Shown here: positions 21,873 to 26,037 of the stretch, piece by piece
Numbering within the stretch: position 1 is the first letter of the stretch
How the letters are laid out: each line of letters opens with the position of its first letter
NCBI RefSeq assembly: GCF_963675585.1
Contig: NZ_OY776414.1
Span: 1,219,001-1,283,000, forward strand
Reading direction: 5' to 3'
Origin: an uncultured Draconibacterium sp.
GTDB taxonomy: Bacteria > Bacteroidota > Bacteroidia > Bacteroidales > Prolixibacteraceae
Length of the DNA: 64,000 nt
Translations under genes and position numbers: made by a program
Notes under the pieces: model-generated
Databases searched by the model: none
Seen by the model: only the letters and a program-made list of their open reading frames with translations
What the model was told of the DNA's origin: nothing

Positions 21873-21949
21873 GCCTTGGTAGCTCAGTTGGATAGAGCAA
21901 CGCCCTTCTAAGGCGAAGGTCACAGGTTCGAATCCTGTCCAGGGTACCA
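21873..21949 (+). tRNA. tRNA-Arg (anticodon TCT)
   Basis: Acceptor GCCTTGG pairs with CCAGGGT (two G-T pairs), then discriminator A and encoded CCA. D-stem GCTC/GAGC, anticodon loop CTTCTAA with anticodon TCT, T-arm ACAGG-TTCGAAT-CCTGT. The anticodon stem ACGCC/GGCGA has an A-A mismatch at its outer pair (27-43). It reads AGA codons. Promoter and terminator both flank it. Confidence 0.95.
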
Positions 21950-21952
21950 ATT

Positions 21953-21984
21953 AAAGAGAGTTTGATTTTCAGACTCTCTTTTTT
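21953..21984 (+). terminator. Terminator of tRNA-Arg
   Basis: AAAGAGAGT / ACTCTCTTT with an 11-nt loop and T-run, 4 nt after the CCA end. Confidence 0.85.
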
Positions 21985-22061: not shown

Positions 22062-22091
22062 TTGCGGTTTTAAAAAATCAATTTATATTTG
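22062..22091 (+). promoter_or_regulatory. Promoter of the methionine operon leader
   Basis: TTG (22062-22064), 19 nt, TATATTTG (22084-22091). Expected transcript start is near 22098, ~15 nt before the leader-peptide ATG. Confidence 0.7.
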
Positions 22092-22112
22092 TGGCATACA
22101 AAATCGACAACA

Positions 22113-22205
22113 ATGAAATTACAAACAAGAAATATTCTTTCTTCTGCAGCAGTAAACAACTGTTGTGGTTTTTTCATGTCGTCTATGTCTATGTTTATGC
22201 GCTAG
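22113..22205 (+). CDS. Cys/Met-rich leader peptide of the methionine operon
   Basis: A 30-codon open frame beginning MKLQTRNILS and ending in GFFMSSMSMFMR then TAG. It carries a Cys-Cys pair (codons 17-18) and four Met codons within eight codons (22, 25, 27, 29). It lies 15 nt after the predicted transcript start and 87 nt before an aspartate kinase-metY-metA operon. This is the design of a ribosome-stalling leader peptide: scarcity of charged tRNA-Met (or tRNA-Cys) would stall the ribosome at the 3' end. The following hairpin starts in the stop codon. Translation and function are inferred. Confidence 0.7.
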   Translation: MKLQTRNILSSAAVNNCCGFFMSSMSMFMR

Positions 22206-22238
22206 CCTTCTTGCGGTGGTCAACCATTGTTTGAAGGC
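22205..22238 (+). promoter_or_regulatory. Leader hairpin (candidate attenuator)
   Basis: GCCTTC (22205-22210) pairs with GAAGGC (22233-22238), with an inner GGTGGT / ACCATT stem using G-T pairs. The outer arm starts with the last base of the leader stop codon, so a terminating or stalled ribosome would affect folding. It is followed by ATTCTTAATA rather than a strong T-run, so simple intrinsic termination is not proven. The rest of the leader to 22291 is AT-rich with a T6 stretch near 22272. Confidence 0.5.
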
Positions 22239-22291
22239 ATTCTTAATACAAGCGTTACAAATCAAAATCAAATTTTTTAAGATTAATTTTT

Positions 22292-23611
22292 ATGTCGGAT
22301 ACGGTTATTCGATTGGGTGGAAGTCATATTGGCAATGCCCTTTCAATACATAATTTAGAAGAATATTTAGGGCGGAAAAACGGACGAAAATTTGTTGTAG
22401 TTTCTGCTATTCCTGAGTTGTCGAAGTTAATTCACAAAAGTATTTCAAGCGTGTTTCAATACGATTTGAACGAAAGCGAATTACGAAATGAAATCACTTC
22501 ATTTTTTACCGGAAGTACTAAAATTAAAGTAACAAATGAATTTGCAGAACTGGTTGAGCAATTGATTAGTTTGTTAAAAGGTATCGGGTTAATAGGGGAT
22601 TATTCAAGGGCTTTAAAAGACCAGGTACTTTGTTTTTCAGAAAAACTTTCGGTTGAAATATTAAAGGCTCAATGGCCATTGGGAACTCTTTTGCAGGTGC
22701 AGGATATTGAATTGGCTGTAAGTTCCGATTTTGGGACAGCAACATTTTTATCAGTAAACCTTGATAAATTGCAAACTTTACCCGATGGTGTTTATTTTAT
22801 TCCCGGTAGTTTTGGGGTTACTGAAAACGGCAAGCTGGCCCGAACCGGTAAAACTTCGGCAGATTATACAGCTGCATTTTTAACAAAAGAACTCGGAGCC
22901 GGCAAATTAGAGCTTTGGGATTTAGATCGTGATTTTCAGCGTGCCGATCCGGCAATTATTGGTAATCTTCAAAAAATTAAACGCTTAACTTATTCAGAAG
23001 CCAGTGAGTTGGCTTATTTCGAACATTATTCTTTTCACCCGCGTACAGTTGAACCACTGGAACACGAACACATTCCGATTGAGGTGATTAGTTCCGATTC
23101 GGCGGATGGTGTTGTGGATACCATTATAAATACCGAAACTTTTATCGAAGATCAGATTGTAAAAAGTGTGGCTTGCACCGATGATATTTCTTTGCTTAAA
23201 CTGGATGGGCCGGGAGTTGGTTTGAAACCGGGTATTCTGGCAAAAGTTACCACAGCATTGAACGATTCCGGTATCAACATTAAATCGGTTATTACGTCGC
23301 AAACATCCATAAATTTTATTCTTAGCGAAGAAAATGGGATCAAAGCTCTGAGTCTGATCAAAAAATTAGGCTTTTCATCGGTTACAGAAATTTCTCTTGT
23401 TGATGATATTTCGTTGATCGGAGTGGTCGGGCACGGAATGCAGCATGCTTTTGGCGTGTCGGCAAAAATTTTTACTGCAGTAGCCAACAATAACATCAAT
23501 GTGGTGTTAAGTGGTTCAGGAGCTTCCGATTTAGTAAGTTATCTGGTGGTGCTAAAATCTGACAAAGAAAAAAGTGTACGTGAAATTTATAAGGCGTTTT
23601 TTAACAAATAG
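22292..23611 (+). CDS. Aspartate kinase (divergent, methionine-operon type)
   Basis: 439 residues, first step of the aspartate pathway to homoserine/methionine. The amino-acid kinase domain is recognisable but diverged: RLGGSHIGN replaces the usual KFGGTSVG (Lys to Arg), ARTGKTSADYTAAFLTKELGA corresponds to GRGGSDYSAAL, and ELWDLDRDFQRADPAII to the TDVDGVxTADPRIV block. Two ACT domains follow (residues ~300-440: LKLDGPGVGLKPGILAKVTTAL and ISLIGVVGHGMQHAFGVSAKIF), expected to bind regulatory amino acids. Context with metY and metA says it feeds methionine synthesis. Start ATG follows the leader by 87 nt. Confidence 0.88.
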   Translation: MSDTVIRLGGSHIGNALSIHNLEEYLGRKNGRKFVVVSAIPELSKLIHKSISSVFQYDLNESELRNEITSFFTGSTKIKVTNEFAELVEQLISLLKGIGLIGDYSRALKDQVLCFSEKLSVEILKAQWPLGTLLQVQDIELAVSSDFGTATFLSVNLDKLQTLPDGVYFIPGSFGVTENGKLARTGKTSADYTAAFLTKELGAGKLELWDLDRDFQRADPAIIGNLQKIKRLTYSEASELAYFEHYSFHPRTVEPLEHEHIPIEVISSDSADGVVDTIINTETFIEDQIVKSVACTDDISLLKLDGPGVGLKPGILAKVTTALNDSGINIKSVITSQTSINFILSEENGIKALSLIKKLGFSSVTEISLVDDISLIGVVGHGMQHAFGVSAKIFTAVANNNINVVLSGSGASDLVSYLVVLKSDKEKSVREIYKAFFNK

Positions 23612-23711: not shown

Positions 23712-25031
<1,320 letters not shown>

Positions 25032-25119: not shown

Positions 25120-26037
25120 ATGCCTTTAAATATCCCGGATAAATTACCGGCAATAAAAATTCTTCGCGAGGAAAACATCTTTGTAATGAATCAATCGCGT
25201 GCAGCTCATCAGGATATTCGTCCCTTGAAAATTATTATTCTGAATTTGATGCCGCTAAAAATATCTACTGAAACTGATTTGTTGCGATTGCTGTCAAATT
25301 CGCCACTTCAAATTGAAATTGATTTTTTGAAGATTAAAGGGCATACTCCTAAAAATACGCCATCCGATCATATGGAGGCTTTTTACCGAACTTTTGATGA
25401 GTTGAGAAACAGGAAGTACGACGGAATGATTATTACCGGTGCACCGGTGGAACAACTGGATTTTGAGGAAGTAACTTACTGGGATGAAATGAAACAAATA
25501 CTTGACTGGGCTGAGCATCATGTTACTTCGTCGCTTTTTATTTGCTGGGCTGCACAAGCCGGATTGTATCATTATTACGGCGTACCAAAGTATCCGTTGG
25601 ATAAAAAAATGTTTGGTGTTTTCGAGCACAAGCTTTCAAATCCGAAACTTCCTATTTTCAGAGGATTCGACGACTTATTTTACGTACCACATTCGCGACA
25701 TACCGAAATAAGAAAAGAAGACGTGGACAAAATAAAAGGACTGAAAGTTATTTCCTGTTCTGATAAATCAGGAGTTACTCTTGTTAAAGCGAAAAATGGA
25801 AGACAGCTTTTTATCACAGGCCATGCCGAGTACTCCCGCCACACATTGGATGGTGAATACAAACGAGATGCAGCCAAAAATTTGCCCATTGATATTCCAA
25901 TCAATTATTATCCCGATAATAATCCCGGTAAAAAACCGGTTATGCGATGGAAATCAACAGCGAATTTATTATTCTCCAATTGGCTGAATTACTATGTATA
26001 TCAGGAGACACCATATAATCTGGAAGAAATCCGCTAA
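25120..26037 (+). CDS. metA: Homoserine O-acetyltransferase (MetA family)
   Basis: 305 residues, class I glutamine-amidotransferase-like acyltransferase. Nucleophile Cys 142 in FICWAAQAGLYHYYG, and PHSRHTEI, FITGHAEYSRHTLDGEY, FSNWLNYYVYQ are family hallmarks. Residue 111 is Glu (ITGAPVEQLDFEEV), where Escherichia coli succinyl-CoA-type MetA has Gly; Glu at this position is known to favour acetyl-CoA. This fits the neighbouring O-acetylhomoserine sulfhydrylase. Activates homoserine for methionine synthesis; last gene of the likely operon. Confidence 0.96.
   Translation: MPLNIPDKLPAIKILREENIFVMNQSRAAHQDIRPLKIIILNLMPLKISTETDLLRLLSNSPLQIEIDFLKIKGHTPKNTPSDHMEAFYRTFDELRNRKYDGMIITGAPVEQLDFEEVTYWDEMKQILDWAEHHVTSSLFICWAAQAGLYHYYGVPKYPLDKKMFGVFEHKLSNPKLPIFRGFDDLFYVPHSRHTEIRKEDVDKIKGLKVISCSDKSGVTLVKAKNGRQLFITGHAEYSRHTLDGEYKRDAAKNLPIDIPINYYPDNNPGKKPVMRWKSTANLLFSNWLNYYVYQETPYNLEEIR

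Follow-up and report, generated by a model that had tools for sequence, protein, structure and literature searches.

Ribosome-mediated attenuators are known for amino-acid operons, as exemplified by the trp, his, thr and ilv leaders. Methionine genes are usually described as being under the control of a riboswitch, a T-box or a repressor.

Leader peptides and upstream start codons have been reported for a few genes of sulfur metabolism. In Streptomyces lividans, the metL leader located 5' of metNIQ carries both Cys and Met codons towards its 3' terminus (CMCRRMCAF) and is accompanied by hairpins, with no typical Rho-independent terminator in the available part of the report (PMC8079986). The Cys leader peptides of the Mycobacterium cys operons have their codons near the stop and, in the part of the study that was available, no conserved terminator; a Rho-dependent model has been proposed for them (PMC1262725). 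In Sinorhizobium meliloti, the SAM-II riboswitch of metA is followed by a start codon, AUG1, which the accessible portion of the paper does not regard as the working start of metA (PMC9373788). With regard to taxonomic distribution, Naville and Gautheret state in the available excerpt that, ermC excepted, no leader-peptide systems were known outside Proteobacteria and Actinobacteria before their Firmicutes case (PMC2965389). The B. thetaiotaomicron transcriptome, as far as its description was available, contains unvalidated short ORFs in long 5' UTRs that resemble leader peptides (PMC7366714). In searches of an open-access library, neither a Met-codon leader in Bacteroidota nor a SAM riboswitch in tandem with a leader peptide was recognised.

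The locus described here lies in a 64,000-nucleotide stretch of DNA from an uncultured Draconibacterium sp., called the window below. The genome (G000, 6.0 Mb) encodes rho. As read from the window sequence, a 30-codon leader ORF sits 5' of an aspartate kinase-metY-metA operon (Table 1).

Table 1. Features of the leader region and of the operon that follows it; positions are those of the window.
Feature	Position	Strand	Remarks
Promoter, Bacteroidota type	22062-22091	+	TTG 22062-22064 and TATATTTG 22084-22091; -7 box kept in close relatives
Segment Z (CGACA), 5' strand of helix P0	22105-22109	+	just 5' of leader ATG; pairs with 22177-22181 (TGTCG)
Leader ORF, MKLQTRNILSSAAVNNCCGFFMSSMSMFMR	22113-22205	+	ATG 22113, TAG 22203-22205; 30 residues
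Hairpin P1, inside the ORF	22144-22168	+	arms 22144-22153/22159-22168; Cys-Cys codons in 3' arm
Met-codon cluster	22176-22199	+	22176, 22185, 22191, 22197 = codons -9, -6, -4, -2; segment A (TGTCG 22177-22181) inside
Hairpin P2	22205-22238	+	22205-22210/22233-22238 and 22213-22219/22224-22230; starts in stop codon
Aspartate kinase, monofunctional, with ACT domains	22292-23611	+	Pfam, NCBIfam
metY, O-acetylhomoserine sulfhydrylase	23727-25031	+	TIGR01326 above cut-off
metA, homoserine O-acetyltransferase	25120-26037	+	NF047918 above cut-off, PF04204

The TATATTTG box, which we take to represent the Bacteroidota-type -7 consensus, is unchanged in all 23 aligned close relatives and variable in other genera of the family. 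A scan for sigma-70 promoters found two where 4.6 were expected, which is not above chance. A tRNA gene and its own terminator-like hairpin (21873-21981) end about 80 nt 5' of the leader promoter. This tRNA was the sole match when the window was scanned against Rfam at the gathering score; no T-box, no SAM-I riboswitch (RF00162) and no other leader family was detected at the operon. The leader peptide itself has no NCBIfam match and no Pfam match above the curated cut-off. The aspartate kinase linked to metY and metA is divergent, since none of the 25 NCBIfam matches listed for it reaches the curated cut-off; of the four matches to it in the genome, one is the gene itself.

The window leader resembles the trp, his, thr and ilv attenuators in being a short ORF with codons for the product near its end, a stop at the foot of a hairpin, and a position 5' of a biosynthetic operon. 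Unlike them, it has neither a U-tract terminator nor a supported antiterminator, its codons are spaced, the amino acid is Met, and the phylum is Bacteroidota. With metL of S. lividans it shares the sulfur-residue codons near the end and hairpins without a typical terminator; metL, however, is actinobacterial, belongs to a Met importer operon, is borne on a leaderless transcript, and has no described link to a riboswitch in the available part of the report (PMC8079986). The Mycobacterium Cys leaders likewise combine sulfur-amino-acid codons near the stop with the lack of a conserved terminator, but use Cys only, have no conserved hairpin as far as the accessible text goes, and occur in another phylum (PMC1262725). 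The S. meliloti SAM-II arrangement, a SAM riboswitch and then an AUG that is not the working start of the gene, is similar to the riboswitch-linked leaders discussed below, yet its AUG1 shares the reading frame of metA and is followed by a Rho-independent terminator, and the portion available describes no Met-codon leader (PMC9373788). Finally, SAM-I (S-box, RF00162) precedes metY, aspartate kinase and metH in related genomes, where its AU-type often precedes Met leaders, but it is absent at the window operon.

Conservation was assessed first among close relatives, represented by 23 distinct upstream regions of the orthologous kinase, the window included. The ORF, the -7 box, the M-x-M end and the hairpin are present in these 23 regions, with the stop displaced in L009, L030 and L031. 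The wider search used R1, a 73-position covariance model that covers the element's 3' half (threshold E ≤ 0.1). R1 matches 108 of the 140 genomes of the family, covering 16 of its 23 genera and 89 of 103 good genomes; the match in G505 and the second matches in G458 and G003 are due to chance. It has no match in the remaining 32 genomes, 14 of which have a completeness of 90% or more and a contamination of 5% or less. To sample the downstream genes, 60 of the 81 family matches without a locus were fetched and three chance matches among the 60 were set aside. Of the 57 loci left, 55 have aspartate kinase as their first long downstream gene and two have metY. The initial annotation had proposed searching relatives for a short frame with the Cys-Cys pair and the Met cluster upstream of these very genes; a frame with the Met cluster is present across most of the family. 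Across the order, R1 matches 20 of 393 genomes at E ≤ 0.1, mostly weakly, and many of the weak matches lie inside long frames. The exact pattern TATGYNTATGCGNTAG was also tried across the class, where it occurs in 11 of 395 genomes; a reversed-pattern control matched more, and the pattern was set aside.

A set of 107 leader sequences was reduced to 85 distinct ones, with L093 left out; L122 and L159, which have no start codon in range, were dropped, and 83 framed leaders remained. The frame defined by the stop is open in 83/83, against 2/83 (+1) and 18/83 (+2) for the other frames over the same stretch. Counted by frame, the ATG triplets in the last 12 codons are distributed 329:1:1. In the window, there are exactly four Met in the last nine codons, as the initial annotation had it, and across the family Met occurs at both -2 and -4 in 83/83, at -9 in 68 and at -6 in 53. 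Codon -3 is nearly free, codon -5 also varies, and the final position is taken by Arg, Gln, His or Cys. Relatives without the Met cluster had been named beforehand as a refuting observation; the cluster is kept, although part of the exact invariance at -2 and -4 is due to selection by the search, because R1 includes the Met stretch. The contrast in stops over the whole ORF is less affected by this selection. The stop is UAG in 77/83 leaders, while in six (L009, L030, L031, L110, L124 and L152) UAG is lost and the ORF extends 5-11 codons into P2; four of these end in PSFC or PSFCC. Synonymous bias is mild: among 15 close leaders, differences by codon position number 325/545/628, and single-base codon differences are 291 synonymous versus 430 other. 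The sequence comparisons argue for a short, probably translated frame 5' of the operon, in which Met codons, specifying the product of the pathway, are clustered near the end.

The role of cysteine is different. The window leader has Cys-Cys codons at 22161-22166, and the suggestion had been made that the ribosome might pause on Met or on Cys. At the aspartate kinase operon, the Cys half of that suggestion was rejected: Cys is present somewhere in 71/83 family leaders, but Cys-Cys in only 14/83, and its codons lie inside the covarying stem of P1.

The hairpin that the initial annotation placed downstream of the ORF is present, begins in the stop codon as claimed (at the G of TAG, 22205), and covaries in its inner stem; the element is, however, larger than was supposed, since it also comprises the intra-ORF hairpin P1 and P0, a helix between the 5' UTR and the ORF. 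The outer stem of P2, GCCTTC/GAAGGC, is nearly invariant in sequence, and the inner stem is 7 bp long. The z-score of P2 is below -2 in 83/83 family leaders. In the inner stem, four pairs are changed on both sides among the 23 close relatives (23/500 shuffles reach that), 97.3% of cells are paired and the covariation score is 0.236 (0/500 shuffles for either, and at most 0.113 when slid). For P1, all six modelled pairs are changed on both sides in the 23 sequences, with 84.8% of cells paired, so that the stem is kept as its sequence, and with it the peptide, diverges. In the set of 83 leaders, P1 is only modestly more stable than shuffles (mean z -1.4; 18/83 below -2). The support for P1 is therefore good close to the window and weaker at greater distances.

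Helix P0 has 96.4% of cells paired and one pair changed on both sides in the 23 sequences. Across 45 distinct cores it scores 11.07, versus 9.47 (sd 0.33) for permuted partners, and 0/2000 permutations were as high. The native pairing exceeds the mean of swapped partners in 60/83 leaders and fails to do so in 23/83, and kinship may inflate the P0 signal. The two partners change together among genera (CGACA/TGTCG, CGGCA/TGCCG, CGGTAA/TTACCG, TGGCA/TGCCA, GAGCAT/ATGCTC, GCGCA/TGCGC). Covariation in relatives, another check proposed for the hairpin, is seen in the inner stem of P2, in P1 and in P0. The Met-codon leader with its covarying RNA structure is thus real and nearly family-wide.

An outer extension of P2, GCGCU/AGCGU, folds in the window sequence and was discarded, being lost in several relatives. 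The motif (A/G)AGCGTT is conserved about 10-15 nt 3' of P2 in most of the 23 aligned relatives, and pairs with the GCGCU 5' of P2 in some of them, not in all.

No T-run or U-tract follows P2, in agreement with the earlier remark that the 3' hairpin lacks a good one, and no intrinsic terminator was found at the locus. P1 was flagged as a terminator (22144-22174) by virtue of the TTTTTT 3' of it; the other 22 aligned relatives have no such T-run, and the candidate was dismissed. An antiterminator formed by segment A and the 3' arm of P2 (GAAGGCA) is not supported: the pairing is perfect in a few relatives, and its energy is -6.2 kcal/mol versus -4.3 for shuffled and -6.3 for swapped A. This was the sole alternative pairing tested, and it gives no covariation signal, being no better than swapped. 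P0, which does have support, is compatible with P2. The initial annotation had read the architecture as amino-acid attenuation. Its Met-sensing part is well supported, while the strict form, with alternative folds and a terminator, finds no support, given that no intrinsic terminator was found and that the tested pairing does not covary. Because there is no U-tract after P2, Rho-dependent termination or pausing seems the likeliest output.

We consider it quite probable that a ribosome-mediated leader, sensing Met-tRNA, controls the aspartate kinase-metY-metA genes with no intrinsic terminator and no riboswitch at this operon. The RNA would start about 12-15 nt 5' of the leader AUG. Since the start codon and a large part of the ORF lie within P0 and P1, translation must melt both, and a ribosome translating the leader would open them. 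When Met-tRNA is plentiful, the ribosome would finish and leave, and P2 and P0 would re-form; RNA polymerase would then pause or be terminated, probably by Rho, before reaching aspartate kinase. When Met-tRNA is scarce, the ribosome would wait with a Met codon in the A site. Given the footprint of a ribosome on mRNA, one that waits at codon -2 would have its leading edge over the entire 5' arm of P2. With P2 blocked, the RNA behind the polymerase would stay covered and the operon would be transcribed.

The placement of P2 is such that a ribosome on the Met codons could block it, but of the possible stalls only the one at codon -2 is predicted to cover the 5' arm. A stall at -4, -6 or -9 would leave P2 free, and this is a weak point of the Met-tRNA reading. 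Several further points count against it: the Met codons are spaced (MxM) rather than tandem, P2 has no U-tract and the antiterminator no support, six family leaders lack UAG, 32 family genomes have no R1 match, P0 pairs no better than swapped in 23/83 leaders, and 15 of the 46 riboswitch-linked ORFs described below have fewer than two Met. A shortage of Met would, moreover, make initiation at the leader itself less frequent.

Since the MxM spacing is unlike the tandem codons of classic leaders, it leaves room for an arrest peptide, and TnaC provides a precedent in that it senses Trp through stalling by the nascent peptide. Here, a leader chain ending in MxM would sense free Met or SAM in the exit tunnel and stall the ribosome near the stop. 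The preservation of Met at i and i+2 in 83/83 leaders fits such a mechanism, as does the recurrence of MxM in many riboswitch-linked leaders that otherwise share little sequence. Against arrest, codons -3 and -5 vary, four different amino acids occur at the last codon, and six leaders have lost the UAG; the distance from MxM to the stop also varies in the riboswitch-linked leaders, and for a biosynthetic operon the stall would have to turn the operon off. We therefore regard arrest as unlikely. The covariation of P0, P1 and P2, together with the conservation in sequence of the outer P2 stem and of several unpaired positions, might alternatively be explained by a structured regulatory RNA that binds a ligand or a protein, with the ORF incidental. 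An incidental ORF is hard to reconcile with a frame that is open in every family leader and that holds nearly all the ATG triplets, or with the enclosure of the start codon and much of the ORF by P0 and P1, and no Rfam family matches at the gathering score; this explanation seems improbable.

More credit, though still tentative, can be given to control at the level of aspartate kinase translation or mRNA decay rather than transcription, in which P2, or its loss, would affect how ribosomes reach the message or how it is processed, 53 nt before the aspartate kinase begins. The failure to find an intrinsic terminator at the locus is compatible with it, and so are six of the 62 SAM-I sites of the order, at which the gene itself starts 12-20 nt after the aptamer and which look translational. 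Against this, the aspartate kinase start region is AU-rich, unpaired in predicted folds and not conserved as a partner of P2, and 53 nt is far for sequestration. Control by a ribosome waiting for Met-tRNA remains our preferred reading for this operon.

Three weak R1 matches outside the family (L050, L051 and L053) carry an upstream SAM-I riboswitch, and these opened a second line of enquiry. A search of 198 genomes of the order yielded 62 SAM-I sites in 55 genomes, all of which were examined. At 46 of the 62, a short ORF starts 6-45 nt after the aptamer, and in 43 of these 46 within 16 nt. Over the final 12 codons of these 46 ORFs, ATG is distributed 87:5:5 by frame; at least two Met occur there in 31 ORFs, one in nine and none in six. 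Their ends include ..SMCMR, ..MPLMPMCMRR, ..SMDMRCMR and ..PMGME. In a control with 30 TPP-riboswitch sites of the order, nine short ORFs were found, with ATG 0:3:2 by frame and none with two Met. The frame bias of the SAM-I-linked ORFs lends independent support to the Met-tRNA reading. Genome G000 has one site above the SAM-I family cut-off (G000:C4:3922759-3922870, L196). There, an ORF ending in ..ANMCMRWRF, a second Met leader of this genome, lies 11 nt after the aptamer and 5' of a gene starting MSRIKTYEEINQKLKSG.., which presumably encodes a homocysteine-biosynthesis protein.

In the class as a whole, the picture depends on the type of aptamer. Among the 30 best-scoring of 150 SAM-I places in the class, none has a two-Met leader; 28 of the 30 are GC-type, many with a hairpin and a T-run. 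For this reason, the claim of riboswitch-linked leaders is limited to the AU type. A further 40 places of the class, hand-picked and mostly GC-type, gave nine short ORFs with ATG 12/0/0 by frame, several of them with runs of Cys and Met. All 132 sites were pooled, and the best ATG in the range 5-45 nt was chosen for AU-type and GC-type sites alike. An ORF whose last 12 codons include two or more Met or Cys was present at 40/69 AU-type versus 1/63 GC-type sites, and a T-run was flagged, by a crude pattern, in 30/69 versus 46/63. Two SAM-I architectures coexist in the class, one with a GC-type P1 and often a T-run, the other with an AU-type P1 and often an ORF 9-16 nt later.

Cys runs were also noted in ORFs that follow SAM-I riboswitches of the class (L299, L311, L314, L310 and L327), with ends such as ..ICCCMCCCC, ..MCCMCCCCCMC and ..MCCCCR, and in the order an ORF of this kind (L204) ends in SSCCCFCCC. 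This suggests that Cys, like Met, may be sensed behind SAM aptamers.

The spacing between the aptamer and the next start codon is much the same for leaders as for genes, which suggests that the aptamer acts on the translation of whichever ORF comes next. In the riboswitch-linked relatives, where the leader often lies 9-16 nt after the SAM-I aptamer, SAM would then decide whether the leader is translated at all. A two-input device can be envisaged across the class, in which the AU-type SAM aptamer gates initiation at the leader and the Met or Cys codons gate the position of the ribosome, so that the genes open only if SAM is low and charged tRNA is low as well. At the aspartate kinase operon, the window's family would retain just the second of these inputs, having lost the first. 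We would put the chances of this proposal at about even. An economical hypothesis for its history is that the leader once stood 3' of a SAM-I aptamer, which later disappeared from the aspartate kinase operon in this family, and that P0 and P1 were gained.

If these readings are true, a Met leader in most of a Bacteroidota family, together with Met or Cys leaders at a near-fixed distance behind SAM-I in other families, would mean that a system credited with reading only SAM senses tRNA as well. They would also tell the target of those SAM-I riboswitches whose first gene is 100-500 nt off. Bacteroidota hardly use Shine-Dalgarno sequences, and the coupling of leader translation to transcription would become testable in such a phylum.
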